Position numbers and translations under genes: made by a program
The notes under the pieces: model-generated
Database searches by the model: none
Seen by the model: the letters and a program-made list of their open reading frames with translations, nothing else
What the model was told of the DNA's origin: nothing
Source: Sulfitobacter guttiformis
Lineage (GTDB): Bacteria > Pseudomonadota > Alphaproteobacteria > Rhodobacterales > Rhodobacteraceae
Direction: 5' to 3'
DNA length: 64,000 nt
Assembly: GCF_003610455.1 (NCBI RefSeq)
Contig: NZ_RAQK01000002.1
Coordinates: forward strand, 62,001 to 126,000
Shown here: piece after piece, positions 14,731 through 40,820 of the stretch
Position numbering within the stretch: the first letter of the stretch is position 1
Layout of the letters: every line of letters begins with the position of its first letter

Positions 14731-14760
14731 TTATCAGGCTATTTTTTTTGCCACCGCGTA
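14731..14760 (-). promoter_or_regulatory. Late-promoter-like element, copy 1 (lysis operon)
   Basis: Minus strand reads TACGCGGTGGC, 12 bp, then CTGATAAG. The same block with identical 12-bp spacing precedes other prophage operons (copies at 28.7, 33.35, 35.7, 40.5 and 40.8 kb). CTGATA resembles a -10 box. The GCGGTGGC block is not a sigma-70 -35 and suggests a phage activator site. Confidence 0.65.
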
Positions 14761-14948
14761 GGTAGTCCGAACTAAAATAGGAAATATCCGATTTTTGCAC
14801 AAATGGCTTATTTACAGATGTTTATACACATAACCTAATGTGATTTCGCGTTGTTTTCGCCCCTATTTCCGGTTTGTTCGCCAGCCGTTTGAGAGGCTTT
14901 CTTTCGGGTCTGAAATGATCATCCAAAGCAGATTTTGGATGGTGTCAG
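14761..14948. promoter_or_regulatory. Divergent early control region with TTTCCGG-type operators
   Basis: This AT-rich region lies between the leftward lysis operon and the rightward replication operon. It holds ATAGGAAATATCCGAT (14777-14792) and TATTTCCGGTTT (14864-14875). Both resemble the operator-like repeats clustered at 42.93-43.08 kb, so the same regulator may control the replication genes. Confidence 0.45.
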
Positions 14949-15572
14949 ATGCGCGATTTTGTAGATTTCCTCAGGGCTCCGGATTTCGTCCGTGATCCGT
15001 CGGTTGACGGCATTTACTACGATCTGGACGCCATAACCCACCGCGTTGATGAGGCCTGCACCCTTCGGGATGCTTTCCGCTACCGTCAGACAAGCAGGCT
15101 CACGATAGATCACCTGCAAGATATCTGCATCGGTATCGGCTTCACTTCCTCGATGGCCGGATACATGCGCCAGGGAGAACCTTGGCGTTACGCGGGGGCC
15201 AGACCCGGCAGCAACGAGGCCCGGTCAATGACATTCAAGATGGACCGACTCCGCTTCGCGATCATCGAAAAACTGCCCAGCATTTCAAGCCTAAATACCG
15301 CGCATGTATCCGATGAGACCAGACAAGCGTTTGCTCTCATGGCCCTCTCGCTCAACGCCATCGCAGACCACGAAACCCTCAACATGATGATCCGGATGGC
15401 GGGCCTATGGCCTGAAACACAGGATCCGCAGGGAGACGCCCAGCTCGAGTGCGAGGAAGCATTCGCTGACGATCGACCCGCCCAGCCAAACCGCGCCGCA
15501 GATGCCCCCGGGGAGCACCATGCACAAAAATGCGGTCTCAAGAAGACATCCCCGTTTCCTCTTGCACAATGA
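14949..15572 (+). CDS. Hypothetical early phage protein
   Basis: This 207-residue protein has no recognised domain. It is largely helical and soluble in composition, and its last 40 residues are hydrophilic and Ala/Pro-rich. It is the first gene of the rightward operon that continues, after 10 bp, with the primase-helicase. Position suggests a replication accessory role, but nothing in the sequence proves it. Confidence 0.6.
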   Translation: MRDFVDFLRAPDFVRDPSVDGIYYDLDAITHRVDEACTLRDAFRYRQTSRLTIDHLQDICIGIGFTSSMAGYMRQGEPWRYAGARPGSNEARSMTFKMDRLRFAIIEKLPSISSLNTAHVSDETRQAFALMALSLNAIADHETLNMMIRMAGLWPETQDPQGDAQLECEEAFADDRPAQPNRAADAPGEHHAQKCGLKKTSPFPLAQ

Positions 15573-15582
15573 AAGCCAAAAA

Positions 15583-17181
15583 ATGACAAAGATTATCCGA
15601 GATAGCAGTATCCTCGACGAACTTGAAGCGTTCGATGCTACGCTGCAGCACTACGATGACGAAAAGCCGGTTGTCCGGCCGGTTCCGACACTCGTGACGC
15701 CTTACGATATCATCGACCAGGAAGACGCAGACGAAGAAAGTGGCGCATTGAGCCCGTTTTCGCAGGATGCCCTCGCATGTGCCCTGGGTCGCTCCGGATG
15801 GGACACGAATGCCAAATATGTGGATGAATGGGGCCGCTGGTGCCAGTGGAACGGATCTCACTGGGAGGTCGACAAGAAGATGGTGTCATTCACCCTGATC
15901 CGGAAGTTCCTGCGCGCCGAGGTCGTCCGGCTGGTCACCGAGGCGCAGGTTTCCAGGGATATGGCCGTTGTATCCGGTCTGGGTGAGGATGAAATCAAGT
16001 CCCGCGAAAAGCTGGTCACTGCGGCAATTAGGAACGGCAAGGATACCCTTCAGAAAAACGGTATCGCTGCGGTGGAGTCGCTTTCGCGTTCGAACGTCGC
16101 CAGCGCGGCCCTGGTCGAGGATTTCGACGGTGATCTCATGCTGTTGGGGACGCCGGGCGGGACCGTCGACCTGAAGACCGGAATTTTGCGCCCCGGTGAA
16201 CGCGAAGATATGATCACGAAGATGACCAGGGTGACCCCGGCAGGACCCGGTGCAAAACCGGAAAAATTCCTGAAATTCTTGCACACCATCCTTGATGGCG
16301 ATGAGGAGGTAATTGGCTTCATCAAGCGGTATTTCGGATACGCCCTGACGGGGTCTGTCGAGGAGCACAAGGTCGCTTTTTTCTATGGCGAGGGCCGCAA
16401 CGGCAAGGGGGTGCTCATGAACACCGTGTATGAGCTTCTCGGGGACTATGCGCGCAGGTCGCCTGTCGAGACCTTCCTGAAGAAGGTCAGCAGCCACCCC
16501 ACGGACATCGCAGGCCTTGCGGGGGCGCGGTTCGTCGTCGGGAGCGAGGTCCCGGCAGGAACCACGTGGAACGAAGCCCAGATCAAGGACATGACCGGTG
16601 GGGACATCCTGACCGCGCGCCTCATGAGGCAGGACTATTTCGACTTCATGCCGCAGTTCACCCTGTTCTTGCATGGCAACGACCAGCCCGCCTTCCGGAG
16701 CGTGGGCACCTCGATCCGGGAACGGATGGTGCTCGTGCCGTTTTCCCGGACGTTCACGGAGGACGAAAGGAACACCAAGCTTCAGCGCGAGATGATCGAC
16801 GAGGAGGGACCGGAAATCCTGCGCTGGATGATCGAGGGTGCGGTCGAATGGGCGAGGCGCGCGGAGGACGGGAAGAGCGGTCTGGGCGTGCCTGATATCC
16901 TGAAAAAGGCCTCGAAAGAATACTTCGATCGCGAGGATGAGATCGGCGAATTCATCAACGACGAGATGATCTTGGATGCCAGCGAGTTCATCTCTGGATC
17001 CGACATTTTCGCGAAATTCCAGTCATGGAATGACCAGCGGGGAGGAGAGCGCAGGTCCCAGCGTGAGATCATGAAGGAGCTGCGTAAACGCGGCCTCAAG
17101 GATGCCCGTAGCGGCACGGAGAGGGGCCTCAAGGGCCTTCGTGCCATTACCGGTCAGGATCGGGCTGATATGGTCGGATGA
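15583..17181 (+). CDS. D5-type phage primase-helicase
   Basis: The 532-residue protein has the family's N-terminal D5 region followed by a superfamily 3 helicase. Walker A is FYGEGRNGKGVLMNTV (about 268) and the arginine-bearing LFLHGNDQPAF segment lies downstream. The stretch IKRYFGYALTGSVEEHKVAF is typical of TIGR01613 P4-type helicases. It should unwind DNA at the phage origin. A separate Toprim protein encoded at 35.7 kb may supply priming. The start at 15583 begins the conserved reading; an upstream ATG at 15502 overlaps the preceding gene. Confidence 0.9.
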   Translation: MTKIIRDSSILDELEAFDATLQHYDDEKPVVRPVPTLVTPYDIIDQEDADEESGALSPFSQDALACALGRSGWDTNAKYVDEWGRWCQWNGSHWEVDKKMVSFTLIRKFLRAEVVRLVTEAQVSRDMAVVSGLGEDEIKSREKLVTAAIRNGKDTLQKNGIAAVESLSRSNVASAALVEDFDGDLMLLGTPGGTVDLKTGILRPGEREDMITKMTRVTPAGPGAKPEKFLKFLHTILDGDEEVIGFIKRYFGYALTGSVEEHKVAFFYGEGRNGKGVLMNTVYELLGDYARRSPVETFLKKVSSHPTDIAGLAGARFVVGSEVPAGTTWNEAQIKDMTGGDILTARLMRQDYFDFMPQFTLFLHGNDQPAFRSVGTSIRERMVLVPFSRTFTEDERNTKLQREMIDEEGPEILRWMIEGAVEWARRAEDGKSGLGVPDILKKASKEYFDREDEIGEFINDEMILDASEFISGSDIFAKFQSWNDQRGGERRSQREIMKELRKRGLKDARSGTERGLKGLRAITGQDRADMVG

Positions 17182-17220
17182 TCAACTTTAGGTAGGGTGT
17201 ATGCACCCTCAATTGAGACA

Positions 17221-17250
17221 AGGCCCCCGCGAAGCAGGGGCCTTTTTTAT
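17221..17250 (+). terminator. Rho-independent terminator after replication operon
   Basis: AGGCCCC, a 9-base loop and GGGGCCT are followed by TTTTTATT, 40 bp after the primase-helicase stop. Confidence 0.85.
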
Positions 17251-17290
17251 TGACTGGAGAAGACTTGGTGGGGCGGACTGGGGAAGGTTT

Positions 17291-17406
17291 TGTGACAGTT
17301 ATGACAGTTTTTTCTATATCAGCCGTATACAGTATTTTTCTGTTTTTTCTCCTCCCGCGCGTATACGGTCTATATAGGATTTTTTGTCATTTCTGTCATT
17401 TTGTCA
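17291..17406. repeat. Large dyad repeat, copy 1 (origin- or operator-like)
   Basis: Outer arms consist of iterated TGACA on the left and TGTCA on the right. Inner arms are CTATATCAGCCGTATAC and GTATACGGTCTATATAGG, and a pyrimidine-rich TTTTCTCCTCCC centre separates them. About 100 bp of it recur almost unchanged at 40568-40690 in the same orientation. Here it follows the primase-helicase terminator. No gene is visible in it. Confidence 0.75.
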
Positions 17407-17430
17407 CGATCCCTTCTTTTCTGCCCTTTT

Positions 17431-17453
17431 CCAAGTCCCTTCCACCGAGTCTT
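17431..17453. repeat. 20-bp repeat, copy beside dyad 1
   Basis: Contains AGTCCCTTCCACCGAGTCTT, also present at 40745-40764 beside dyad 2 and inverted inside the Toprim gene (36440-36459). A diverged inverted version (AAGACTTGGTGGGGCGGACT) flanks this dyad on its left side near 17257. Confidence 0.7.
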
Positions 17454-17476
17454 TCTTCCAAGTCCAGAAGCGATCA

Positions 17477-18682
17477 TCAAAAATATGCTTTCGATATTTG
17501 CGCCGCCAGCGTTGCCGCCAATACCACAGGCACGGCATTCCCGACCTGCGTAAATTGCCTCGCAGTTGGGCCAACGAACCGGTAGTCATCCGGGAAGGTT
17601 TGCAATCTCGCGCACTCCCTGACGCTCAGGGTTCTGGGTATTTCCGGATGTAGGTGCGACCTACCACCACCGTTTGTGCCCCCCGCGATGACCGTCTTGG
17701 ACGGTCGTGTTGGTGTAAGTCGATCAACCCGCCCCAGCTTGTCGCGCTTTCCATAATCCAGAACACGATACCGCTCCACAGAACCGACCCCGTGGCGGCG
17801 TGTCTCGTGGTTCAGGGCGTCGTCCCCCGGCAAGATATCGAGAACGGCACCACAGCCCACGTGATCGCGTTTAAGGGGCATTTCAAAGCATCCCTGCACC
17901 CGGGCGCCAACGACAAACATCCGCTGCCTGAATTGAGGCACCCCGTAATCGGCGGCGTTCCACACCTCTGGCTCTTCCACATTATATCCGGCATGGGTCA
18001 AAATCTTGATGGCCTCACCAAGCTGCTCGCCACCATCAAGATCACGGAGACCGGGGACGTTCTCAATCACGAATGAGGCCGGACGAAAATGGACAATCAA
18101 CTTCACGAAGTCGAAAAGCAGGTTTCCATTTTTCTCATGCGAAAACCCGACCCGTTTGAAATTCTCACCGGAACGGGAAAACCTCTGGTTCGCAGCGATC
18201 GAAAAGGGCTGGCAGGGCGGGCCGCCCACGAAGACCCCCTCGAAGGGGGTGTCAATGATCGGCGTTAACTGCTCGATGATCTCGTCAGTTTTGGAAACAT
18301 CGCCGTTGTAATGGGGCGGGCCAAACACCTTCCATTTTGGACGATTGACACGCAGGGTCTTACAGAAAATCTCGTTGAACTCGAAGGCGGCCTTGTGATC
18401 AAATCCGAGGGCCTCAAATCCAAGATCCATCCCTCCGCAGCCGGTGAAGAATGATACGATCGGCACCCCTTTGGCGGTCTTTTTGAAGCTGTTTAGTGCA
18501 GGCGGCTTTCCACCTGTCCAAGCAAGCGCACGGCTTTTTGCATACACCAGATCGTCAATCTTCCCGCCGACACCCTCCATGACGTTGCAGATATCAACCC
18601 CGGCATCCGCGCCCCTGATTAGGTCTGATTGTGCATCATACAGCTTTTCGGGACTAACAAATGTGGGGTTGTTCATAAGCAT
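17477..18682 (-). CDS. C5-cytosine DNA methyltransferase
   Basis: This 401-residue enzyme carries the class motifs in order: FFTGCGGMDLG (motif I, about 79), GGPPCQPF with the catalytic Cys (about 157), ENVPGL (motif VI), QFRQRMFVVG (motif VIII) and the C-terminal VGNAVPVVLAATLA (motif X). It has an unusual 70-residue N-terminal extension. Its start overlaps the stop of the HNH gene, so the two form a restriction-modification operon carried in the prophage between tail and replication genes. The target sequence cannot be read from the sequence. Confidence 0.92.
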   Translation of the reverse strand: MLMNNPTFVSPEKLYDAQSDLIRGADAGVDICNVMEGVGGKIDDLVYAKSRALAWTGGKPPALNSFKKTAKGVPIVSFFTGCGGMDLGFEALGFDHKAAFEFNEIFCKTLRVNRPKWKVFGPPHYNGDVSKTDEIIEQLTPIIDTPFEGVFVGGPPCQPFSIAANQRFSRSGENFKRVGFSHEKNGNLLFDFVKLIVHFRPASFVIENVPGLRDLDGGEQLGEAIKILTHAGYNVEEPEVWNAADYGVPQFRQRMFVVGARVQGCFEMPLKRDHVGCGAVLDILPGDDALNHETRRHGVGSVERYRVLDYGKRDKLGRVDRLTPTRPSKTVIAGGTNGGGRSHLHPEIPRTLSVRECARLQTFPDDYRFVGPTARQFTQVGNAVPVVLAATLAAQISKAYF

Positions 18683-19857
18683 CAGGGTATCGCCTTAAAT
18701 TCTACTTTGGCCTTATCGTAGACCATCTTTGCTTGGTCGGCATCCAGAAAGTCCTTCTGAGAAGAGGCCTTCAGCCATTGGTCATAATATCTGTGAACGC
18801 CGCGGTGACACGTTGGGCAGACCGCAACGAGATCATCAAGCATGGTTCCTGTCTTCGAGGTCCGTGCCCCTGAGCATAATGGTAACAAATGGTGAACATC
18901 AAGTATCCTCTCAACCCACGGATAAGAGGTGCTGGTGTCCGTGTCGCAAAAATCGCAGATGGCAGAGGGGTAGGCCTTGAAGAATTCCGACCGGATCTTT
19001 CCGTTCCGCTCGATCACCAGATGGGTCTTTCTGGTCTTTCTTCCTTCGGCGAAAGTCGTATCTCCGGAGAAGCCGGACTCCTCTATATCGCTCACTGCGG
19101 TGTCAGCGTAGTCGAGCTGCAGGCGGTCAATCTCCGCCTCGAAAAGGTCTGTTATTCTAAAGATTTCCGCATCACCGGATGCCAGAGGATCGCCGCCAAC
19201 CGGTTCCAGCTGCTGAAATATTTCGAGGGCATCATCCTGTGACAGGGATACCGTGATGTTGCGGCTCTTCAGGGACAAATATGATATCTGGGCTATGACC
19301 TGAATGCTCTCGGCAGCCTGCCTATCGACAGTTGCGAGCGTGTGGCCCGCAGTGGCCAATGGCGCGAAGTCCATCTGACCCTCATCTCCGACGAAGCCCG
19401 AGGCCGCATAGGCGGCGATCACATCGTTAATGCCGGTCGTGAATATCCCGATGCTTGCTCTCGCCAACAGAAATTTCAGAGTGAACAGCAACGGTCTGCG
19501 TATTTCTGCGGTATGATCCCAGGCCTGAAGAGCGGGAGATGGGTCCGTTGTAACCTCGGCCAGAAAGTGAAAATACTCATCCGTGGTGATGCTGCCGTCC
19601 GCTGCCAGGAGCGTGGCCAGCTTCGTCGGTTGCGAACCGGGCCCATCCGATGCGGCGAGAAGCGCAAGCTTAAAAGTGCGGCCGTAATTCCGCCACGGCT
19701 TATAATTCGGGTTGTCCGGCAGGAACGGCAATCCGGTGTCGGCGACAAGAGCGGCGCGGTCCGTTAAACGGAGATCATTCTTCATCGAGAACCGGGCGAT
19801 TTTCTTTAGATTGTCAAATTGGAAATAATCCAATCTTCCCTGATCCCAGTTCCACAT
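18682..19857 (-). CDS. HNH restriction endonuclease (predicted)
   Basis: The 391-residue protein ends in a zinc-linked HNH nuclease module: CDFC (301-304), ILDVHHLLPLCSGA (about 318-331) and CPTCHRGVH (347-355). The first 290 residues, probably the recognition part, match no family I know. Tight coupling to a C5 methylase makes it the probable restriction partner. It has its own AT-rich upstream region rather than a late-promoter element, so it may be expressed in the lysogen. Confidence 0.8.
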   Translation of the reverse strand: MWNWDQGRLDYFQFDNLKKIARFSMKNDLRLTDRAALVADTGLPFLPDNPNYKPWRNYGRTFKLALLAASDGPGSQPTKLATLLAADGSITTDEYFHFLAEVTTDPSPALQAWDHTAEIRRPLLFTLKFLLARASIGIFTTGINDVIAAYAASGFVGDEGQMDFAPLATAGHTLATVDRQAAESIQVIAQISYLSLKSRNITVSLSQDDALEIFQQLEPVGGDPLASGDAEIFRITDLFEAEIDRLQLDYADTAVSDIEESGFSGDTTFAEGRKTRKTHLVIERNGKIRSEFFKAYPSAICDFCDTDTSTSYPWVERILDVHHLLPLCSGARTSKTGTMLDDLVAVCPTCHRGVHRYYDQWLKASSQKDFLDADQAKMVYDKAKVEFKAIP

Positions 19858-19941
19858 ATTGATGCCGCCCCAAAATTTACTACCGTATATGAGGCTTAGC
19901 GTGCATTACACCTGATCGATTCTCTACCTAAGAATGACTTT

Positions 19942-21057
19942 CTACCTTATTCGTGTGCCCCATGCGTCGAGGGTGATCAGACGGTTGCTGACGGTCCGCA
20001 CGGACAGCGGGTATTTTACGCTGACGTCGATGATCGCCGGACCGGCGTTCGGAGCGATCTTTGTGACGTCACGCGCGATATTTCGGCCCGCGAGGCCGTC
20101 GGAGTCTGATCGTGGTCCGGATCCTCCACGCCCCAAGGCGACGTTGTGACCATATGCGCTCCCGCCAACGGTGTGATCATCCAGACCCAGCTCCGTTTCG
20201 CCATATACCGCGCTGGCGGGGCCAAAAATGGAACGCGATGCAATGAACCTTGTGAACGTCCCGATGACGCGACCCTGACCGTCGCGCACGGAGATCAGAA
20301 AATCCGTATAATCTGCGTCAGGATGCGGAATAATTATGAGACGACCGTGCGCAGAAAACGCGTCCATCGGGAGCCTCTTCGGGCTGCTGCACTGGGTGAG
20401 CTCACTATCCTCCCACTCCTCGTTATATATCCCGGGGGCTCTGACGGTCCCGGTGCCCAGCTCGGGGTCCGGATCCTGGAGCTCCACCACATCGTCGTCG
20501 GAGTCGTCCGGTGGGGTCCCGTCCCCGTAAAAGCACAAACATGCGGGCGACATGCTGCCGCTGGGATCGACGTGATTGAACGCCTGATTTGAGAACAGGT
20601 CCAGGGCATCTGATGTGACCGCATACTCGTCGGCGTATGGATATGCGATGATCACCTGTGCGCGGGCCGTCGTGATGCCGGTCACAGGCTGCGTCTCCAG
20701 AGTCATGTCTTCCGGCCGGATGACCATGGCTGGGTGCGACCTCATATACCACTCAAAGCCCCCTGAAGGGGCTCCAGGGACGTCATAGCCGACCTGCAGC
20801 GGTGCCAGCGCATTGAGCTCGACAGAGGGGGCCAGATAGCCGCCCTGGTGAACCCGCAGCGTCTCCCCGAGTGGTGCGGTGCGTTTTTTGAAATCTGATA
20901 GTCTGGCTGTCCGCGCCTCGACATGCCCGGCCTTTTTCAGAAGATCCGCGTCACGCTTTCGACGCGCCCGGTTCCGCTTCTTTCGTGCATCCCTCTCCTT
21001 GAGGGTCATCAGCCGTCCACCCGCCAGCTTTCGGGCCAGGAATGTCTCGTTTTCCAT
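19942..21057 (-). CDS. Phage tail-region protein of unknown function
   Basis: The 371-residue product starts at the ATG that overlaps the preceding stop (TGATG) and has GAGG before it. The N-terminus is very basic (RDARKKRNRARRKRDADLLK); the rest is beta-rich without a recognised fold. It is the last gene of the tail operon, where fibre or baseplate-associated proteins are usually found. Confidence 0.65.
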   Translation of the reverse strand: MENETFLARKLAGGRLMTLKERDARKKRNRARRKRDADLLKKAGHVEARTARLSDFKKRTAPLGETLRVHQGGYLAPSVELNALAPLQVGYDVPGAPSGGFEWYMRSHPAMVIRPEDMTLETQPVTGITTARAQVIIAYPYADEYAVTSDALDLFSNQAFNHVDPSGSMSPACLCFYGDGTPPDDSDDDVVELQDPDPELGTGTVRAPGIYNEEWEDSELTQCSSPKRLPMDAFSAHGRLIIIPHPDADYTDFLISVRDGQGRVIGTFTRFIASRSIFGPASAVYGETELGLDDHTVGGSAYGHNVALGRGGSGPRSDSDGLAGRNIARDVTKIAPNAGPAIIDVSVKYPLSVRTVSNRLITLDAWGTRIR

Positions 21058-21878
21058 CACCTGATCCTCGTCATGAAGGCCTGCCATTTTTGGCCCTCAA
21101 TCGTCAAAAACTGGATGTCGATGAGTGCGTGATCGTTGTCCTCAACCACATCTACCGGGGGCACGGTGACGGTAAGATTGCCCTCTTCGGGCAGGTGCCT
21201 GTATCTGATCCCTCCGATCACATGATCTTCGAGCTCAACGGACATAAAATGGATCTCCTCAGATGCCCATGGACCAGCCCAATCCAGAGCCATGACGTCC
21301 ACCTTGGTATCCGACGCCTCGATGAGTGCCGTAAGGCCCGCTTGATCGCACCTCGCAAGGCCGCGCAGCGCATAGCTGTCATTTTCCCTGGTGTTCATAA
21401 TGTTCTGTTTTGGCGGGTCGAGGTCAAAGTCCTCATCCTCAAAATCGACGTCCATCAGGCCTGTCGCATACTGACCCAGTTTTATGCCGACAGCTGGCAA
21501 GCTGAAGCCCGTGAATGATCCGTCGATTATGGCATGATAGCACGCCAGGACGTCCCACCTGGACGGACTTGCGGCAAGCGGCATGACGCGATTTGTGGAG
21601 ACCGTCGCAGCGATTACGCCCGAAAGAATTCCAGCATCGACGGACGGGGTGACGTCTCCCTCGTCCAATTTTTTCGATTGAGCGTTGACGGGAAGTGACT
21701 CGAGACGCCCGAACAGCTGCCTGCGGTCCGGGGCCCGCGCCTTTTCTGCCTGCTGCTCCCGGGTCTCCATCAGTCGACCGGCCCTCTTTTCTTTGAGATA
21801 TCTCCCAGGGTTGCTGTTATCCATGTATCGCTCACGGAGTGTCTTTTCAGTCGGGCTTCTGACAAATTTTACGGTCAC
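21057..21878 (-). CDS. Phage tail-region protein of unknown function
   Basis: The 273-residue protein shares its general plan with the next gene: a basic N-terminus (YLKEKRAGRLMETREQQAEK) followed by a Val/Asp-rich beta-type region with repeated acidic stretches (VDFEDEDFDLDPP). The start overlaps the preceding gene by one codon. A tail-tip or adhesion role is a guess from gene order. Confidence 0.6.
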   Translation of the reverse strand: MTVKFVRSPTEKTLRERYMDNSNPGRYLKEKRAGRLMETREQQAEKARAPDRRQLFGRLESLPVNAQSKKLDEGDVTPSVDAGILSGVIAATVSTNRVMPLAASPSRWDVLACYHAIIDGSFTGFSLPAVGIKLGQYATGLMDVDFEDEDFDLDPPKQNIMNTRENDSYALRGLARCDQAGLTALIEASDTKVDVMALDWAGPWASEEIHFMSVELEDHVIGGIRYRHLPEEGNLTVTVPPVDVVEDNDHALIDIQFLTIEGQKWQAFMTRIR

Positions 21879-23611: not shown

Positions 23612-23612
23612 A

Positions 23613-26686: not shown

Positions 26687-26687
26687 T

Positions 26688-28674: not shown

Positions 28675-28704
28675 GTGACTGCCCTTGGATCTATTCAGGG
28701 CACT

Positions 28705-28734
28705 GTATCAGTTTGTAAAATTAGCCACCGCGTA
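28705..28734 (-). promoter_or_regulatory. Late-promoter-like element, copy 2 (tail operon)
   Basis: Minus strand reads TACGCGGTGGC, 12 bp, then CTGATACA. The block overlaps the 3' end of the upstream gene: its last codons and TAA stop are part of the element. Confidence 0.7.
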
Positions 28735-29086
28735 GTGAGCCGGAAGACCGGAATTGGCAATCAACGAAGACCTTACGGTCATCTCTTGGATCCTGAATGG
28801 TCATCGTCTCGCCGTCGATATCGATGGTGGCCCCGAAAAGGTCTTTCCGGATGTCGGTGATGCCACCGGCGATCAGCTGTGACCGGACCAGGTCGATCTT
28901 GGATTTTCGCATCGCCTGACGCGCCCCCTGGGGGGTGACGGCGGCTTCGAATATGACAGGCGTATAGATGCCATCGACGAGGATCGTTCCGTGGTTTTTG
29001 GTGACGACCTCATATGTCACCCCGTCGCCAAACGTGCTCGCCATAATGCCACCCGCCATTTCGCAGATGCTGTCATACAGGTTCAT
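28721..29086 (-). CDS. Head-tail joining protein (gpFII-like)
   Basis: The 121-residue protein has a mixed beta profile with FGATIDIDGETMTIQDPRDD near the end. This is reminiscent of lambda FII-type head-tail attachment proteins, where an idG-Y-V strand is conserved. Its C-terminal SLRGG and stop are encoded within the late-promoter element. Confidence 0.6.
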   Translation of the reverse strand: MNLYDSICEMAGGIMASTFGDGVTYEVVTKNHGTILVDGIYTPVIFEAAVTPQGARQAMRKSKIDLVRSQLIAGGITDIRKDLFGATIDIDGETMTIQDPRDDRKVFVDCQFRSSGSLRGG

Positions 29087-30314: not shown

Positions 30315-30315
30315 G

Positions 30316-30725: not shown

Positions 30726-30732
30726 AAATTGG

Positions 30733-31080: not shown

Positions 31081-31117
31081 ATTCTCGGTCTTTCATGTGG
31101 TGAAAATGGGGGGGAGT

Positions 31118-31142
31118 CCCCAGTGCCATGACGGCGCCGGGG
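31118..31142 (-). other. Imperfect hairpin after capsid gene
   Basis: CCCCAGTGCC and GGCGCCGGGG form an imperfect stem just past the capsid stop. No T tract follows in the direction of transcription, so partial termination or 3'-end protection is more likely than full termination. Confidence 0.4.
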
Positions 31143-31151
31143 AGTATTTTA

Positions 31152-33305: not shown

Positions 33306-33336
33306 ATTGCCGATATCCGTTTTGTTGTCAGGAACA

Positions 33337-33365
33337 TATCAGGTTTGAAAATTTGCCACCGCGTA
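33337..33365 (-). promoter_or_regulatory. Late-promoter-like element, copy 3 (capsid operon)
   Basis: Minus strand reads TACGCGGTGGC, 12 bp, then CTGATATG, about 30 bp ahead of the capsid fusion gene and within a few bases of the portal gene's stop. Confidence 0.7.
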
Positions 33366-33369
33366 GTGA

Positions 33370-34896
33370 CTACGGGCCTCCACCCCATGGCTCTGGGGCT
33401 TCCTCTTCGAGAAGCTTTTCCAGTTCCTCAAACGAAAAATCCCCGAACATTAGATTGACCTCGGCGTCGCGCGCACGCTTGCGCTCCTCCTTTATCTCGG
33501 CCAGTTGTTCCTCGGGATCCTTGCCCTCGGCGAGGCATGCCTGTGACCAACTTAGAAGTCCGGACTGCAGCTTCTTGATAACAACCGAGATCTCTTTCTC
33601 GGGCTCGAGAACCTCACGGGCGGGGGCTACAAGGGTGATCGTGGAAGTAACGGATTTGCCAGTGTTGATTTCGTAGATTTTCTTGAGACGCTCGACGGTC
33701 CGCATAATCCATGGGTAAATCGTGTGTGCCCTCGTGCAATCTACGCCCCGATTAAATTCGGAAGCGTCGGATTTGGTTGTCCCGAACTTCTGTCCGTTTG
33801 TGTCACCACTGATCTGCGAATAGGTGACACCATATGCGACCGCACAGGATTGCATGGAGATCCGCATGTAGTCCGTAAATCCGGCTACTGAATTGATCGA
33901 GAACGGCACCAGCTGCTTGCCAGGTGGCAGCTCCGGGAAAGTTCCGGGTGCGACCTCTTCAATCATCTGGAGGGACCAGCTACCATCATCGTTCTCAACC
34001 GCGTTAGAGCCGAAGGGCTGATCGTCGCCGCCGCCATCGCCGAGATTGAAATCATCATCGTCGGAGCCGATTGCTGACGTGATCACGCCCTGGAAGTTTG
34101 CTTCTCCCTTGGCCTTCTGAACGGCGGCAAACATGAGTTCAGAGCGGTCCTGATTGACCAAGAACGACGTCGCACCACGCGGCATGCCGCGCAGTTCTCC
34201 GCCATGCTGGATCTCCATCATATGTGCGACATCTTCGACGGGGACGAAGCGGGATTGGTTCACGCCCCATGGTGACGAGACTGCGTCGAGTGTCTCTTTG
34301 ATGTGGTAGCCGACGATGCGTCCGGATTGGTCGACCTCGACCCCGGAGTGGACCTCGTTATTTTTGTATTTCGGTGTGGCCATATCCTCCAGCTGGGAGG
34401 CGTCGATCAGCTGCGTCGTCAGGTGCAGCTTGTCGTCTTTGTATTCCACCCGATAGATGATGAAACTATCCCCGGCCCGGAACATGCCACGCGATGCGAC
34501 GGCTTGCGTGCCGTAGAAATTCAGGCGGCCCTCGTAATCGGACGATGTGGAGCTGAACCAGTTATTAAGGAATGCCTCAAATTCGGAGTCGCCTTTTACG
34601 GACACCCGGATGCCGGTCCCGATGTGATGAGATACCAAAACCTGAACGGCGCGCCGCGCGTGTGGATTGTTGTCGACCAGATCGCACGAAACGCGACGGA
34701 TAAATGATAAGGCCGCAGGCACGGACTCAATCATGGGTCCGCTGATCGGCCACTCATCCGCTGATGCAAAGTTCTCCGGGCGGCGATATCCGCGCCCCAT
34801 GGTCCGTGGATCACGTTGCTGCGGGTGCCTACGACGTGCGGCCTGATGAGGCTTGCGCTTGCGTGCCCTGGCGATGTTGAAGCCGAAAATCTTCAT
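33370..34896 (-). CDS. Portal protein (lambda gpB family)
   Basis: The 508-residue protein has a basic start, then WPISGPMIESVPAALSFIRR and SCDLVDNNPHARRAVQVLVS, where the lambda-type portal family begins. The later segments ISGDTNGQKFGTTKSDASEF and VVIKKLQSGLLSWSQACLAEG are also diagnostic. It should form the dodecameric DNA gate of the head. It is followed at once by late-promoter copy 3 and the capsid gene. Confidence 0.88.
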   Translation of the reverse strand: MKIFGFNIARARKRKPHQAARRRHPQQRDPRTMGRGYRRPENFASADEWPISGPMIESVPAALSFIRRVSCDLVDNNPHARRAVQVLVSHHIGTGIRVSVKGDSEFEAFLNNWFSSTSSDYEGRLNFYGTQAVASRGMFRAGDSFIIYRVEYKDDKLHLTTQLIDASQLEDMATPKYKNNEVHSGVEVDQSGRIVGYHIKETLDAVSSPWGVNQSRFVPVEDVAHMMEIQHGGELRGMPRGATSFLVNQDRSELMFAAVQKAKGEANFQGVITSAIGSDDDDFNLGDGGGDDQPFGSNAVENDDGSWSLQMIEEVAPGTFPELPPGKQLVPFSINSVAGFTDYMRISMQSCAVAYGVTYSQISGDTNGQKFGTTKSDASEFNRGVDCTRAHTIYPWIMRTVERLKKIYEINTGKSVTSTITLVAPAREVLEPEKEISVVIKKLQSGLLSWSQACLAEGKDPEEQLAEIKEERKRARDAEVNLMFGDFSFEELEKLLEEEAPEPWGGGP

Positions 34897-34899
34897 GCC

Positions 34900-35421
34900 T
34901 TAGATGACCTCCATCTCGTCAGCTGCGGCCAAGGCCCGCTGGTAATATGCGGCGACAAGGAGGGCCTCGGCCCTCCCGTCATCCATCTGTCTTTTGAGTT
35001 GTTCACCGGCCACGTCAGGGAAGATCTGGCGGGCCATCTCGAGGCTTGCGCGCTTCTTGTCCGCGTCTGTGACACCCGCACCGAGGATCAGGCCGAAAGG
35101 CACCTTCCAGACGCCGGGCGCCACAAGATGGAGCGAGGGGCGATTGGCGTAAAGCTGGCAGGCCGCAATAACGGCACCATACCCCTGTGCGAATTTCCAC
35201 ATACTTGAGCGTTTGTCCGTATGTCGCGGGCCGACCTTCTCGAGGATGATGACGTCAGGCTGCCACCGCTTCAGAAGGCCGTATATGGACAGGGGGCAGA
35301 CCACCTTTACGTCACCGGAATATCCGGTCGGCATGTCCTCCAGACCGATGACCTCATCAGTCACCGGATCGATGCACGCAAGCGCACCGGAAAATCCCGG
35401 ATCGATGCCAACGACCCTCAC
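34900..35421 (-). CDS. RuvC-like Holliday-junction resolvase
   Basis: The 173-residue protein has the RNase H fold of the RuvC family: MRVVGIDPGFSGALACID with the first catalytic Asp, the second acidic strand DVIILEKVGPR, and the closing DDGRAEALLVAAYY with paired acids. Phage RuvC-like enzymes resolve branched DNA before or during packaging; its place between portal and gpW-like genes fits that. Confidence 0.85.
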   Translation of the reverse strand: MRVVGIDPGFSGALACIDPVTDEVIGLEDMPTGYSGDVKVVCPLSIYGLLKRWQPDVIILEKVGPRHTDKRSSMWKFAQGYGAVIAACQLYANRPSLHLVAPGVWKVPFGLILGAGVTDADKKRASLEMARQIFPDVAGEQLKRQMDDGRAEALLVAAYYQRALAAADEMEVI

Positions 35422-35422
35422 C

Positions 35423-35671
35423 TCACCGCCTCATACGCGTTTTGATACGGCGTGATGGGCGCGTCGTGGTCATGAATTTGTGAGGGGAAAGGCCGAGATA
35501 TGCGCGAAGCTCCCGGATCATGGTCTTGAGCTGATCACGTGGCAGCAGGGACAGCGTATTGCCATCATGCGAAACGCTGCCAGCGGGACTAAAGTAGGCC
35601 ACCTCGGCCTGCTTCAGCTTCGCCATCAGCTCGTCGGCCGAAAGGCCGTATGGTGTGATATCTGTGCTCAT
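35423..35671 (-). CDS. gpW-like head-tail connector protein
   Basis: The 82-residue protein has a short helical start (LSADELMAKLKQAEVAYF). A strand pair with SVSHDGNTLSLLPRDQLKTM then leads to a final helix, resembling the gpW fold. A basic tail follows. Late-promoter copy 4 ends only about 10 bp before its start codon, and no ribosome site is visible, so the message may be nearly leaderless. Confidence 0.6.
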   Translation of the reverse strand: MSTDITPYGLSADELMAKLKQAEVAYFSPAGSVSHDGNTLSLLPRDQLKTMIRELRAYLGLSPHKFMTTTRPSRRIKTRMRR

Positions 35672-35681
35672 AGCGGCATGA

Positions 35682-35710
35682 TATCAGATCATTATTTTTG
35701 CCACCGCGTA
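35682..35710 (-). promoter_or_regulatory. Late-promoter-like element, copy 4 (gpW/portal operon)
   Basis: Minus strand reads TACGCGGTGGC, 12 bp, then CTGATATCATGCC. A start about seven bases past the -10-like box would lie only two or three bases from the gpW-like ATG. Confidence 0.7.
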
Positions 35711-35711
35711 G

Positions 35712-36791
35712 CTACGGAGACGGGCTGTCGTCGCTCTCCACCGGTTTCACAACGTCATTCCAGTCCTCACGGAAGCCGTCAGGTGCATGATAGTAGGCGC
35801 GCACACCCTTGTAGTATTTACGGGCGGGACCTGTCAGCGTCTTGTCGCGGCCGACCTGCAGGCGCGTGAGGGCCTTGCCCGCGTAAACCATGCCTGCGGG
35901 GTCGTTGTCGGTCACGATAATCACCGTGTCGATGAGGTCCTGATCGATCATATCGCGGATCATATCGATACACATCACCTCGGTCCCGGAACGCAGGGCG
36001 AAAAGATGGCGTCCCTCATCGCAGGGGTGCAACCCATCATATGCCAGAACATCAAGGGGGGACTCGCCCACCACAGCCGTCTTGCCCATGATATGTGGCC
36101 CGGAGGACCTCCATACGCCGTTGTGGGTGCCCCTCTGGTATCTCTTGCCGCCCCCGTGCAGGACGATGGTTTCATGACCTCCGTGGACAATCTCACCGTC
36201 ATCAAGTCGGACGAAATATGGAAAGCGGATGTTCCCGCTGCCGGAGCCTGAAAGGCGCATGGAGCGCCTGTGAATCTCGGATACCGAATGCAGCCCCCGA
36301 CGTCTCATGAGATTTGGGGTGAAATCGGGATCACTCCATATCAGGGATCCGGCCTCGAAAACGGCCTTCGCCTCGGCGTATGTCATCTTCTTATTCTCTT
36401 CGTTGATCGTTTCAGACTGGAGGACCTGAGGGACTTGAGAAGACTCGGTGGAAGGGACTGGGGGAAGGGAAGAGGGGTTTTGTGTCAGGGGTTTGGTGGA
36501 GAAGTTTTCAGGGGCCTGATTGCCAAGAATGGAGCGAAGAAGGCGGCGTGCATCACCGAATTTTCCGGCTCCCACCTCGATCAACGCGAGATCCAGGATG
36601 GTTCCGAATTTCTTGTTTTCGTCCTTGTAGCGGTAGATGCCGCCGCGACCCTTGAATGTCTCGATGTTCTCTTTGCCCTTCTGGAATTCGTCCTTGTTCT
36701 TAGTTGGATGCCACCCGAGAGCCGGGAGGAATGTCGCAATGGGGGTTGTCTTGAAGAGGTCGAGTTCCGCGTCTGCGTTGATGACGTTCAT
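35712..36791 (-). CDS. Toprim-domain primase-like protein
   Basis: The 359-residue protein has an N-terminal CHC2-like region without zinc cysteines (FKGRGGIYRYKDENKKFGTI) and a Pro/Ser/Gln linker (PSSLPPVPSTESSQVPQVLQ). A Toprim domain follows with VVGESPLDVLAYDG carrying the catalytic Glu and IIVTDNDPAG with the metal-binding Asp pair. It may prime replication together with the helicase encoded at 15.6 kb. The linker is encoded by a 20-bp repeat that also lies beside both dyad elements. Confidence 0.8.
   Translation of the reverse strand: MNVINADAELDLFKTTPIATFLPALGWHPTKNKDEFQKGKENIETFKGRGGIYRYKDENKKFGTILDLALIEVGAGKFGDARRLLRSILGNQAPENFSTKPLTQNPSSLPPVPSTESSQVPQVLQSETINEENKKMTYAEAKAVFEAGSLIWSDPDFTPNLMRRRGLHSVSEIHRRSMRLSGSGSGNIRFPYFVRLDDGEIVHGGHETIVLHGGGKRYQRGTHNGVWRSSGPHIMGKTAVVGESPLDVLAYDGLHPCDEGRHLFALRSGTEVMCIDMIRDMIDQDLIDTVIIVTDNDPAGMVYAGKALTRLQVGRDKTLTGPARKYYKGVRAYYHAPDGFREDWNDVVKPVESDDSPSP
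36440..36459 (-). repeat. 20-bp repeat inside Toprim gene linker
   Basis: The minus strand reads AGTCCCTTCCACCGAGTCTT, identical to copies beside the two dyad elements. Here it is translated as part of the VPSTESSQVP linker. Confidence 0.7.
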
Positions 36792-36964
36792 TTTATTGAT
36801 CCTTGCTACGTGTGCAGGATCAAAATGCCTCTTTCGATTGTCTCACGCAGATGACCCGGACGAACAAACCGGAAATTGTGCGCGGCCAATGTGATATTCG
36901 GCGCGTAAAGCATGTCCAACCATATAAAAATAAAGGGTATCCAGATTGTTCCGTATTTCCTATT
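36792..36964. promoter_or_regulatory. Toprim gene leader with operator-like sites
   Basis: No late-promoter element is present. AAACCGGAAATTGTG (36867-36880) and CCGTATTTCCTATTTT (36951-36966) resemble the TTTCCGG-type operators of the early control regions. GATCCTTGC and GCAGGATC form an inverted pair near 36798. Confidence 0.35.
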
Positions 36965-39043
36965 TTACCTGCGTCCGTATGGCCTGCCGCGCTGGCCGCC
37001 TGAAGGTCTCCCGACGACATTCATCCGTTTGCGCTTTGGTGGCGCCGCCTGTGGCTGTGCGGCCTGTGTGGCGTAAACGTCGGTTTCGGCGGTCGCGATG
37101 GCGGCGGCGGGGGCCGTCATAATCAGGCGGTTCATCTTTTCCGGGCTGATGCGACGTGCGGCCTCCAGGGCGGCCTTGGCATAGATGAAGGCGTCGGCCG
37201 CATCCTTCCGGACATGCTTGGCCCTCACGAGCCACCTCATGACGTTCTTCCCCCCGGAACGGATCCTCTTCTTTTCGTAATTCGTCATCTGGTCGAACCA
37301 TTCCTCACCCCGATCTGCGGGGACGTGGATGAAGCCCGGACCGGGCTTGGTCTTGGATTGGCATGATGCCAGCCAGTCACGCGCCGCCTGAACGCCGACC
37401 ATGTAGACCCATGCGCCGTTGCGCTTTGCGGCCGTCCGCATGTTGCCAGATGATGGCCAGATGGGCGAAAGGGTGCCCTGATCTGATGCGCCTTTTATTG
37501 CGAAGACGTTAAGCCGCTTCCGGCGGCTGGCATATGACGTGACCGCATCGATCACCGCGCCGCCCTGTTCAGTGTCGCCACCCGTATCGATGCAGGTGGC
37601 CATGATGCGCAGGGTTCGACCATCTTCCGTCAGGTAGTCGGCCATGAGGATCTCGTCCAGCTTCGCCCATACGTCGCCCTCGGTAATGTCCCCGAAAATC
37701 ATCTCATGGGAAAGGGACCAGATCTCATCACCCGCGCCGAACGCAAGGGTGGATACCTCGAGGCGTCCGAGACCCTTCTTGCCCTGAGGCTGCACATCCA
37801 CCCCCACGAAGACCGCAAGCACCTGCGCCGGGATCATCGTCCAGGGCTGCTCGACCCGCAGGCGGAATTGTTCGGGGTCAACCTCGATCTGATCGCCATC
37901 ATCTTCCGGATCCCAGATCCGAGCGAGCTTCGAATTCGTGAAATTCTGCATCTTGCCCGGGTTGTTCTTCGAGTCCTGAAAGGAGCGGATCAGATCGGCA
38001 ACAGAACGGCGTGGATGATACAGTTCCCATGCCCAGAAACCGGCATGCCTGTTGCTTACCCTGCGTTCGCCACAGGTCTTGCACACGGCACGTCCGATCT
38101 TATCCCAGCGTTTCTCGACTTCCGGATCCTGAGCCTCATCGCAGCAGCTGAAGGGGCGCGTCTGGCGCCATTTGATCTTGCCCTTGGTCGTGAGGACCTT
38201 GACCCTCTGGGCCTCGGTCCACGCAACGCCACATATACCGCAGTTGTAGGCGGCATCCTCGGGGTCTCCGTCCTTTTCGACGTTTTCCCACCGGTAGTAA
38301 TCCCAGTCTTTGCAGTGGGGACATTTCACATACGGCTTGCGGCGGTCGCTCTTCATGTATTCGGCCATGATCGGGCTATCCGCGTCCGTTGGGGTGCTCA
38401 TCCGGATGGACAAGTCCTCACCTGTGAAGCCCTTCAGGCGTTCATCGATCAACGCAACCGCATCGCCATCCCGCGTCATCTCGAATTTGTCGACCTCATC
38501 CATGAATACGACGCCCGCCGAACGGCTCGCGGTGTTGGCCGGGCTGTTGGCCGTGAGGATCTCGACATATCCACCGGGGAATGTCTTCTTGGAGTGAACG
38601 AACTTGTCGTTCTTCCTCTCGATCGCAGCACGTCCACCCCAGAGGGCCGCCAGCTCGGGCGTCTCCTTGATCATGGGGTCAAGCTTGGAGTCAACAAAGG
38701 CGTCCACCGTCGTTTCGGTTGGCTCATAGACAAGGATGGGACGCGGGTTCAGGTGCATGAAATACCCTATCGCCGTTTCGCCCGTCGAGGTCTTGAAGAT
38801 CTGCGCAGATGCCACGCCAGAGATCACCCTGACGCCCAGTTCGGTGATCGCATCCATAGGTCCACGTGCGACCTCATAGGTGGACGTCTCCCATTGCCCC
38901 GTGACGGCGGACGTCTCGGAGGGGACCTTGCGGAACATGTCGGCCCATTCGCTCCCCGTAACATCGGGAGGCGGATCCATTGCCCGGTTACGGCGATGCG
39001 CGATGGCCTCGCGCAGTTCGTCCTGGGTGGCGAGCAGTTCAAT
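36965..39043 (-). CDS. Terminase large subunit (GpA family)
   Basis: The 691-residue protein has the packaging ATPase region with TGETAIGYFMHLNPRPILVY and the Walker B-like AGVVFMDEVDKF. A treble-clef zinc finger follows (CPHCKDW, NCGICGVAW; later CKTCGERRVSNRHAGFWAWE). The C-terminal nuclease part includes VFVGVDVQPQGKKGLGRLEV and KDAADAFIYAKAA. It cuts and packages concatemeric phage DNA. ATG at 39043 overlaps the small-subunit stop (ATGATTGA). Confidence 0.92.
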   Translation of the reverse strand: MELLATQDELREAIAHRRNRAMDPPPDVTGSEWADMFRKVPSETSAVTGQWETSTYEVARGPMDAITELGVRVISGVASAQIFKTSTGETAIGYFMHLNPRPILVYEPTETTVDAFVDSKLDPMIKETPELAALWGGRAAIERKNDKFVHSKKTFPGGYVEILTANSPANTASRSAGVVFMDEVDKFEMTRDGDAVALIDERLKGFTGEDLSIRMSTPTDADSPIMAEYMKSDRRKPYVKCPHCKDWDYYRWENVEKDGDPEDAAYNCGICGVAWTEAQRVKVLTTKGKIKWRQTRPFSCCDEAQDPEVEKRWDKIGRAVCKTCGERRVSNRHAGFWAWELYHPRRSVADLIRSFQDSKNNPGKMQNFTNSKLARIWDPEDDGDQIEVDPEQFRLRVEQPWTMIPAQVLAVFVGVDVQPQGKKGLGRLEVSTLAFGAGDEIWSLSHEMIFGDITEGDVWAKLDEILMADYLTEDGRTLRIMATCIDTGGDTEQGGAVIDAVTSYASRRKRLNVFAIKGASDQGTLSPIWPSSGNMRTAAKRNGAWVYMVGVQAARDWLASCQSKTKPGPGFIHVPADRGEEWFDQMTNYEKKRIRSGGKNVMRWLVRAKHVRKDAADAFIYAKAALEAARRISPEKMNRLIMTAPAAAIATAETDVYATQAAQPQAAPPKRKRMNVVGRPSGGQRGRPYGRR

Positions 39044-39686
39044 CATCGTCCACGTCGTCTTCCTCATCATCCTCAAGATCGACCTCTTCAAGAGGAAGCG
39101 GATCGTGAACTGATGTTGACGGATCACCACCGGCGCGCCTGATGACGCTCTCCGATGTGGACAAGTTGCCCATGGCTTTTCGGATCTCCTCCTGGATGAC
39201 GTGACGCACGATGACCGGATCATCCTCGGCCGCCAACTTGACATTCACCCGGGACGGGATGGAGTTCAGGCGCGAACGTGTGCGCTCGTAATCCTCCTCG
39301 ATAACGTCGGCGATCGCATCTACTGCGACCAGGGAGCCCAATTCTTTTCGTGCAGCCGCTTGCCGGAGGATCGCGCGGAAATGCCAGTCCGCCGCCTTCG
39401 CCGTGCCCTCATCATACGGCTGACCATCACCGATCAGACCAGTGACGGCCTCGTCCTCTTTCCACCGGATCACGTCGGCGATTTTTACGGTGTCCATACC
39501 CGCACCCTGTCCGCCGCCACCCGCGCGATACGGACATCCACGCGCCAGCCACTTGCGGATCGCCTGCGGAGTTATGCCGATAACGGCAGCAGCGTCCTTG
39601 ATCGACATGGATCCGTCAGCGCGCAACCTGATTGGGGTGCCAAGTTGTGTGATATTTTCCGGATTTTTGTCCGTTTTTTCTGACAT
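39039..39686 (-). CDS. Terminase small subunit (Nu1-like)
   Basis: The 215-residue protein has an N-terminal helix-turn-helix (MSIKDAAAVIGITPQAIRKW), a central helical region and a very acidic C-terminus (EEVDLEDDEEDDVDDD). This agrees with small subunits that bind the packaging site and recruit the large subunit. The two genes overlap by five bases. Confidence 0.85.
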   Translation of the reverse strand: MSEKTDKNPENITQLGTPIRLRADGSMSIKDAAAVIGITPQAIRKWLARGCPYRAGGGGQGAGMDTVKIADVIRWKEDEAVTGLIGDGQPYDEGTAKAADWHFRAILRQAAARKELGSLVAVDAIADVIEEDYERTRSRLNSIPSRVNVKLAAEDDPVIVRHVIQEEIRKAMGNLSTSESVIRRAGGDPSTSVHDPLPLEEVDLEDDEEDDVDDD

Positions 39687-39831
39687 TTTTCTTCTTTCTA
39701 ATCGCTGACAAACAACCCAGATTTTTTCAGCTTATACGTCGCGACAGGTCGAGCCCCTTCGGCCTTGTTGTATTTTTTTACCCCTAAAGAGGACCCGCTC
39801 ATAAATATATGATTTATAACAATTTTCATTG

Positions 39832-40425
39832 TCACATTTTATTTCCAGGCTTGGCGATCTCTACCTCCGAGATGCGCTCAACAAGGCCCGGGATCGTCTC
39901 CCTCCAGTGCTTTTTGAGGCCCAAACTTGGGCGCCTGGCGGGGCTGTCCTGGAAGCGGACCATCGTCTTGTAACCGAAACCGCGACGCTCAAAGATCCCC
40001 TCGTAGTCCATCTTGGCGCCACGAGGTTTACCGACAAAATATCTTCCGGACCGCGTCAAGGCCTCGAGGGATGCACCGGTTGTCTGGAACTTCGGGAGCA
40101 GGCGGCCTTGTGCGTCCATTGCTTCAGGTGCGACCGGTTTGCTGATACGACGTGCGGGGGTGCCATATTCGCGCCCCACAAGCCCTCCAAGGCGATCTGG
40201 GGCGATATAGAGGCGTGCATCAGGTCCTTTGCCCAGCATGTCGACACGGGCAACGTCAGACGCCACAACACGAGGATCTGGCCGCCTTATGCGTGTCCTG
40301 ATGTATGATGGGGTTTCGATCCTTGCGGCCTCTGCTGTGCCTGCAACGGTCGATGTGGCCACGCGCACGGTGATGACCTCAGCTTTACGGAGACGGGCCA
40401 GAAGTTCGCGGTCGGAGTATTTCAT
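39832..40425 (-). CDS. Hypothetical late phage protein
   Basis: The 197-residue protein starts at the ATG preceded by GGAGG with seven-base spacing. It is basic, with the late segments FERRGFGYKTMVRFQDSPAR and KKHWRETIPGLVERISEVEI that recall minor tail or tail-completion proteins, but I cannot name a family. It is the first gene behind late-promoter copy 5, with a terminator hairpin between promoter and gene. Confidence 0.6.
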   Translation of the reverse strand: MKYSDRELLARLRKAEVITVRVATSTVAGTAEAARIETPSYIRTRIRRPDPRVVASDVARVDMLGKGPDARLYIAPDRLGGLVGREYGTPARRISKPVAPEAMDAQGRLLPKFQTTGASLEALTRSGRYFVGKPRGAKMDYEGIFERRGFGYKTMVRFQDSPARRPSLGLKKHWRETIPGLVERISEVEIAKPGNKM

Positions 40426-40440
40426 GGGCGGCCTCCAGGA

Positions 40441-40474
40441 AAAGAAAAACCCGGAGCCATGCGGCCCCGGGTCA
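40441..40474 (-). terminator. Leader terminator between late promoter 5 and its gene
   Basis: On the minus strand ACCCGGGGCC pairs with GGCTCCGGGT and is followed by TTTTTC and TTTT. It lies in the 5' leader, so full expression would need read-through or antitermination. Confidence 0.6.
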
Positions 40475-40508
40475 AGTTGGGTGTCATCTTGCACGTAACA
40501 ATCGGACA

Positions 40509-40538
40509 ATAGCACATCCGGAATATCGCCACCGCGTA
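40509..40538 (-). promoter_or_regulatory. Late-promoter-like element, copy 5
   Basis: Minus strand reads TACGCGGTGGC, 12 bp, then GTGCTATTGTCC. The -10-like box TGCTAT differs from the TGATA form of copies 1-4 but sits at the same distance. Confidence 0.6.
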
Positions 40539-40567
40539 GTGAGGGAACCGGTCCAGTTTTGCCATTT

Positions 40568-40690
40568 GTGACAAAATGACAAAGATGACAGTTTTTTCTA
40601 TATCAGCCGTATACGGTATTTTTCTGTTTTTTCTCCTCCCGCGCGTATACGGTCTATATAGGATTTTTTGTCATTTTTGTCATTTTGTCA
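40568..40690. repeat. Large dyad repeat, copy 2 (origin- or operator-like)
   Basis: The left arm carries TGACAAAATGACAAAGATGAC and the right arm GTCATTTTTGTCATTTTGTCA, near-perfect inverted copies. Inner arms are CTATATCAGCCGTATACGG and CGTATACGGTCTATATAGG. It is almost identical to the copy at 17.3 kb and lies between divergent late operons here. Confidence 0.8.
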
Positions 40691-40744
40691 TAGATGCCGC
40701 TTTTTCGAGTTGTTTAATTACCTAAGTTTTATCTGTTCTTTCCA

Positions 40745-40764
40745 AGTCCCTTCCACCGAGTCTT
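40745..40764. repeat. 20-bp repeat, copy beside dyad 2
   Basis: AGTCCCTTCCACCGAGTCTT, exact match to the copy beside dyad 1 and to the inverted copy in the Toprim gene. A GGTCCTCGAG stretch follows it here, as in the Toprim copy (GGTCCTCC). Confidence 0.7.
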
Positions 40765-40790
40765 ATCCAGTCTTTTCAGGTCCTCGAGTC

Positions 40791-40820
40791 TACGCGGCGG
40801 TCATATTACAAAGTCGTTAT
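40791..40820 (+). promoter_or_regulatory. Late-promoter-like element, copy 6 (rightward)
   Basis: TACGCGGCGGT, 12 bp, then TCGTTATGATGG. It is the only copy on the plus strand and has two changes in the upstream block, yet the spacing is the same. It precedes the rightward holin-like gene by about 110 bp. Confidence 0.5.

Follow-up and report, generated by a model that had tools for sequence, protein, structure and literature searches.

How are several separate late operons of one prophage switched on together? The question is raised by a stretch of 64,000 nucleotides from Sulfitobacter guttiformis (contig NZ_RAQK01000002.1, positions 62,001 to 126,000; the whole stretch is called the window here, and its first letter is position 1), in which a short element occurs six times within a prophage, ahead of genes for terminase, portal, capsid, tail, endolysin and holin. 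From comparison of the sequences, it is probable, at roughly 0.8, that the six elements are late promoters that need an activator or specificity factor made by the phage, and that their recognition block is exchanged as a set between related phages.

Six elements in a common register

Five exact copies of a block, TACGCGGTGGC, lie on the minus strand, and a sixth, diverged copy, TACGCGGCGGT, with two mismatches to it, lies on the plus strand, as the first-pass annotation of this DNA had described. Its remark that the orientation always follows the downstream genes also holds, since the strand of the element is that of the following gene in 6 of 6 cases. Each putative promoter is listed with its block and its box:

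40506..40538, minus strand: putative late promoter element of the terminase operon (block 40528-40538, box TATTGT 40506-40511)
35678..35710, minus strand: putative late promoter element of the head-tail adaptor (82 amino acids), RuvC and portal genes (block 35700-35710, box TATCAT 35678-35683)
33333..33365, minus strand: putative late promoter element of the capsid/protease gene (block 33355-33365, box TATGTT 33333-33338)
28702..28734, minus strand: putative late promoter element of a 144-amino-acid gene (tail terminator by position) and the tail genes (block 28724-28734, box TACAGT 28702-28707)
14728..14760, minus strand: putative late promoter element of the endolysin gene (block 14750-14760, box TAAGAT 14728-14733)
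40791..40823, plus strand: diverged putative late promoter element of the holin operon (block 40791-40801, box TATGAT 40818-40823)

The block at 28724 falls within the final codons of the gene before it (28721-29086) and is therefore not intergenic.

Where is the -10 box? The spellings proposed for it at first do not keep one register, CTGATA standing 12 nucleotides past the block and TGCTAT and CGTTAT 13. A common register appears when TAnnnT is taken to start 16 nucleotides past the block, which holds at all six sites, with TGn in front at five of them; when sets of six prophage windows were drawn at random 20,000 times, none had a common TAnnnT offset. Judged by its letters, the constant box TGnTAnnnT is an extended -10 of the host type. 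If the hexamer is set at -12 to -7, the block would lie at about -39 to -29, over the -35 region, with its centre near -34. The earlier claim that no sigma-70 -35 box is present fits this arrangement, in which the block occupies the place of that box. A sigma-70 consensus scan of 26.0-43.2 kb, covering five of the six sites, called 6 promoters where shuffled sequences gave a mean of 8.8, and none of the five covered elements was called on its own strand, one match overlapping the capsid site on the opposite strand. A host-type -10 box without a sigma-70 -35 box, as found here, is what marks the activator-dependent late promoters of phages.

How rare is such an element? The short block alone, with up to 2 mismatches, has 25 matches in the window, a number reached by 16 of 100 shuffles, so that the argument depends on the exactness, the register and the position of the copies. 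When a matrix was built from five sites at a time, the one left out was recovered in all six rounds, with scores of 18.6-39.9 against 9.5-13.7 for the best other position in the window. Over the whole genome (3,975,823 bases), CTACGCGGTGGC-N16-TAnnnT with at most 2 mismatches occurs at 10 places and its reversed-pattern control at 21; five places are exact and all in the prophage, while the plus-strand prophage site and four others have 2 mismatches. The pattern in the earlier frame, TACGCGGYGGY-N13-TGATA, gave at the same threshold 15 places against 18 for its control: 6 are the prophage sites (four without mismatch, one with 1 and one with 2), and the remaining 9 all have 2 mismatches. The first-pass annotation had reasoned that equally frequent matches in unrelated host DNA would speak against promoters, and no host excess over the reversed-pattern control was seen. 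A shared, oriented element thus stands ahead of several late operons in 6 of 6 cases without host excess, as is expected of activator-dependent late promoters.

Among 394 genomes of the host's family, the window pattern with at most 1 mismatch matches in 76, and a cluster of five sites occurs in this genome only; the other matching genomes have one to three scattered matches each, mostly single. Three are found in G134 and in G210, two of those in G210 being 3.5 kb apart on opposite strands. The copies had also been recommended as a probe for other prophages, a use that this result does not bear out. Searched with the block followed by N13-TGATA, IMG/VR yielded 5 contigs with one exact match each, which were taken as chance.

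As a separate observation, the stretch between the two divergent putative promoters is duplicated 23 kb away (17293-17453 and 40577-40764 of the window; 114 nucleotides at 96% and 26 at 100% identity), and it contains inverted repeats and TGTCATTTTTGTCAT repeats.

The same slots in related phages

Do related phages have the same element? When viral contigs were scanned with the window's terminase alone, one contig at 59% identity and two at 30% were found, and an alignment including the 59% relative brought two more terminases at 58% (80 of 278 confirmed loci kept). The relatives compared here are the viral contigs G394 (31.2 kb), G395 (23.4 kb) and G396 (26.5 kb), whose late gene order is that of the window phage; the putative promoter places are called slot 1 (terminase), 2 (adaptor, RuvC and portal), 3 (capsid), 4 (144-amino-acid gene and tail), 5 (endolysin) and 6 (holin). 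The window's own element is found in none of the three, and in all three slots 2, 3 and 4 carry a repeated block of the relative's own, whose distance from a TAnnnn box is fixed.

In G394 it is TAATCCCATCGTTTTTCC-N11-TAnnnT, exact at these three slots. With up to 3 mismatches, TAATCCCATCGTTTTTCC has only one more place in that contig, on the opposite strand before a gene for a 101-amino-acid protein without family match, and this place corresponds to the window's divergent holin slot. Built from the three exact copies, a matrix ranks next the site before the divergent short operon (24.4) and then that before the lysin, and all five G394 sites read TTTTTCC-N11-TAnnnT. G395 has at the same three slots a CCGGCC(C/G)CAGTTTCG-type block, TTTCG-N11-TATAAC, and G396 has a related one, CCGGC....GTTTCG-N11, followed by TACCGT, TACACA or TATACC. 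In an exact scan, no further viral contig contained the block of G394 or that of G395. TA opens the box at 17 of 17 sites in the four phages, and the full TAnnnT is present at 6 of 6 sites in the window and 5 of 5 in G394. The large terminase subunit (TerL) is 86% identical between G395 and G396, which share a block type, 71-72% identical between G394, with its different block, and either of them, and 58-62% identical between the window and the three.

The distance from box to gene is also kept. In the order window, G394, G395, G396, the ATG of the adaptor gene at slot 2 lies 6, 6, 7 and 6 nucleotides past the hexamer, so that the predicted transcription start would be the ATG itself, and a conserved leaderless adaptor mRNA is predicted for all four phages. 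This is a sharp prediction for a phage mRNA. The adaptor proteins align from the predicted start in pairwise comparison of the window with G396 (E 7e-6) and with G395 (6e-5), while the pairwise alignment of G394 and the window is insignificant; a stop stands 4 codons upstream of the ATG in the window and 3 codons upstream in G394, and the frame is open upstream for 56 codons in G395 and for 33 codons, with one TTG within, in G396. At slots 3 and 4 the leaders are 23-28 nucleotides in 4 of 4 phages. Thus, the block differs while slots, -10 distance and leader lengths stay, and the recognition block appears to be exchanged as a set between related phages, the specificity of the factor and its sites apparently changing together. 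These different blocks in the same slots are the main reason why the earlier proposal, a promoter class served by a phage-made factor, can be called well supported; the frame that it gave for the -10 box had to be changed.

Several observations weigh against this reading. The box of G395 is TATAAC at all three sites, so that none is TAnnnT (an alternative, TATAGT, lies 5 nucleotides upstream), and only one of three boxes in G396 is TAnnnT. The terminase slot is without such a block in G394, G395 and G396, as is the holin slot in G395 and G396. The lysin site of G394 scores little above the following background (15.8 against 13.8), and this lysin, an endolysin by family, is not homologous to the window's endolysin. 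Finally, family scans, which covered part of the prophage open frames, found no homologue of a known late activator among the proteins scanned, and no protein is tied to the block.

Wider searches brought no closer relatives. The capsid protein had no relative among genome contigs, the portal had 4 weak matches (21-24%) among viral contigs, and the terminase alignment had 18 among genome contigs, the best at 30%. The capsid had matches in 110 of the 394 genomes, among them the window's own; none is close, the best other full-length match being 33% identical, and in three genomes from this search (G100, G070 and G269) terminase identity is only 26-28%. When terminases were searched across the class (385 genomes, E<=1e-100), the one addition was G669, which is closer to G397/G398 and shows no slot element among its 25 commonest repeated 11-mers. 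An upstream 9-mer screen of 25 more distant loci gave no late-slot element, but it was crude and missed the element of G395 and part of that of G394. In L117, another distant phage contig, a GGAATAAAACC element is repeated close to the starts of genes (2792, 3627, 5630 and 8467 on the plus strand, 3819 on the minus strand); the repeat scores above that of G394, and the genes behind it are on the strand opposite to the L117 terminase.

The prophage and candidates for its late factor

The end of a tRNA-Asn gene is repeated directly, with 47 identical bases at 10244, 47203 and 54518, which places the phage at about 10.24-47.25 kb. The repeats point to a temperate phage integrated at tRNA-Asn, within which the six elements would lie, with an integrase of its own:

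10471-11646: the phage's own integrase, within the prophage

A second island stands in tandem at tRNA-Asn at 47.25-54.5 kb (whole region 10244-54592), with an integrase at 47376-48629, which is probably not the phage's, and resolvase, GmrSD and HEPN genes. Family matches identify the small and large terminase subunits, a RuvC-like resolvase, portal, fused protease/capsid, decoration protein, holin and lysozyme/endolysin, the last with PG_binding_1 and a sub-threshold CHAP in Pfam; the match of the major tail protein is weak. Head-tail adaptor Ad1 is matched by the G394 and G395 counterparts of the 82-amino-acid gene, which has no family match itself, and for the 144-amino-acid gene the counterpart in G394 matches a tail terminator. 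An open frame at 39832-40515 begins within the putative terminase promoter; translation probably starts at the ATG at 40425 instead.

Which protein could recognize the block? The first-pass annotation had looked to the early proteins at 43.7-46.8 kb. The early operon stays on the list, which was too narrow, and two proteins outside it are added:

14949..15572, plus strand: candidate late factor of 207 amino acids, first gene before the primase
41958..42917, minus strand: helix-turn-helix protein of 319 amino acids, conserved in all four phages
43053..46811, plus strand: early operon with other candidate factors, covered by family scans

A protein of the early operon, or another one, is quite possibly the late factor, if short of probable. 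No informative family match was found for the operon's proteins except a glutaredoxin-like domain in 43053-43595. The protein at 43717-44235 appears by eye to have three ribbon-helix-helix repeats in one chain, and Pfam, PHROGs and NCBIfam gave no ribbon-helix-helix match for it.

The protein at 14949-15572 is a tentative choice. It has no match in the family scans, its predicted model is all-helical at low confidence, and its start codon is uncertain, one collection entry beginning later. One relative is found in G394, where it diverges from the lysin, and two more in the protein collection; G395 and G396 show no relative of it or of the window's endolysin, although these contigs may end before that region. 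Genome G006 provides one data point in its favor. In the stretches fetched, relatives of the 41958-42917 protein, VapE-like, Toprim, repressor and integrase genes are kept, while late structural genes, apart from a terminase fragment, and a relative of the 14949-15572 protein are both missing. The element in G006 (C18:35000-49615 and C22:189000-202700; L188, L189, L191) is G394-like and apparently split over two contigs, and by eye it has transposase-like genes.

That the helix-turn-helix protein at 41958-42917 is the late factor is doubtful, and an early regulator or repressor is the more likely role. Its N-terminal helices are well predicted (block means 85-90, residues 11-70) and resemble the helix-turn-helix domains of Cro, Aca and HigA with modest Z scores. 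Relatives are present in G394, G395 and G396 (the direct match between the window and G394 is weak, E 0.01, and that between G394 and G395 is 2e-9) and in 2 of the 394 family genomes, its own counted; two close relatives in the protein collection have a near-identical helix-turn-helix, and that of the three phages has diverged. Repeats of the TATTTCCGGTAT type flank its gene (42931-43069) and are also found in the gap between the endolysin and 14949 (14775-14875) and ahead of the Toprim gene 35712-36791 (36866-36965). In G396, ACTTCCTGTTT repeats are placed likewise, next to the relative of this protein and upstream of the Toprim gene (L059 3518-3798, 12197-12207). These repeats are probably a separate set of early operators, although a matrix of the set separates poorly from background, and because they look like early operators the protein is ranked as an early regulator.

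Mechanism, rival readings and known systems

How would the late genes be switched on? Host RNA polymerase with the main sigma factor would read the extended -10, TGnTAnnnT, and the phage-specific block at about -39 to -29 would replace the usual -35 contact. A candidate protein from the early genes may bind the block, and because it would be bound at every block, the terminase, portal, capsid, tail, endolysin and holin genes would fire together after induction. A bolder version can be imagined, in which a factor of an undescribed family (the 14949-15572 family being the best candidate) replaces -35 recognition, overrides a terminator at the terminase promoter, and switches its target at all slots together between phages with terminases about 70% identical; taken as a whole it is rather unlikely.

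The terminator supposed there also suggests another reading. A terminator-like hairpin of 11 pairs with a U-rich tail (40448-40473) lies between the putative terminase promoter and the likely first ATG, and GafZ of the Caulobacter gene transfer agent, according to PMC11150451, binds between -10 and -35 and antiterminates. Could the block then serve to load an antiterminator of the Q or GafZ sort, with polymerase starting here and the bound phage protein giving read-through of terminators? Such a leader is found at only one of the six window promoters, and the adaptor gene is predicted to have no leader in any of the four phages; folding of the whole terminase leader does not stand out from that of shuffled sequences, 42 in 200 of which fold as well (z -0.85), and the window block covers -35 instead of lying between -35 and -10. 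It would be unusual for one late cluster to have many separate places where an antiterminator is loaded, and this reading is improbable.

It is harder still to credit a phage-encoded alternative sigma factor that reads block and -10 together. An asymmetric block at the -35 place with a fixed spacing to the box would suit it, but the box is of the normal host type, TGnTAnnnT, and the prophage proteins scanned gave no match to a sigma domain. Borrowing of host control is known among prophages, and the element might be the site of a host regulator, a thought that has nothing specific to this prophage in its favor. The host genome shows no excess of sites over the reversed-pattern control, the other 393 family genomes have no cluster, and related phages carry unrelated blocks at the same slots, so that this is the least likely of all. 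The reading of phage-activated promoters with an exchangeable block is preferred.

What would such promoters offer? The four related phages share their slots, a constant -10 distance and similar leaders and have three kinds of block, which makes a clean natural experiment, and since the slots are the same and the blocks differ, a comparison of blocks with proteins from one relative to the next could reveal the late factor. The block sets offer orthogonal late promoters for alphaproteobacteria, and a wholesale target switch, if true, would mean that orthogonal late-promoter sets exist in nature.

A search of titles and abstract openings found no report of this promoter set. How does it compare with known systems? 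In P2 and P4, one small phage activator, Ogr or Delta, switches on several late operons, from sites that are dyads near -55 in the case of Ogr, unlike the asymmetric window block at -35. There is a likeness in layout to Mu, whose late promoters Plys, PI, PP and Pmom have a poor -35 and are activated by the phage protein C, according to PMC4461284; here too, several late operons for lysis and morphogenesis would each have their own promoter with a poor -35, and in Mu one phage protein serves them. In the same account the C site lies upstream of -35, whereas the window block, if TAnnnT is the -10, covers it, and no C/Mor-family match was found in the part of the prophage open frames scanned. The T4 middle promoters, with MotA/AsiA and sigma appropriation, have a phage box in the -35 place beside a host -10, which the window elements would resemble, and the MotA box is centred at -30 (PMC6024815), against near -34 predicted for the window block; the sequence of the box differs, middle genes are served there and late genes here, and no MotA or AsiA match was found among the proteins scanned. 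In alphaproteobacteria, a phage-like late cluster is served by GafA in RcGTA and by GafY/GafZ in CcGTA, as it would be by the putative factor here, and according to PMC9638019 and PMC11150451 the activator works with the main sigma factor at a core promoter whose -35 is degenerate, and can antiterminate. The GafY site is described there at about -120 with one main cluster promoter, in contrast to the six short promoters proposed here, and the family scans gave no GafA-like match among the proteins scanned, GafA itself not having been compared directly. Membership in the Mu C, T4 MotA or GafZ/Q type is not claimed, as the Mu C site is placed differently and no homologous factor was found. The kind of promoter is known from Mu C, T4 MotA and GafA, and this putative promoter set would be a new member of it.

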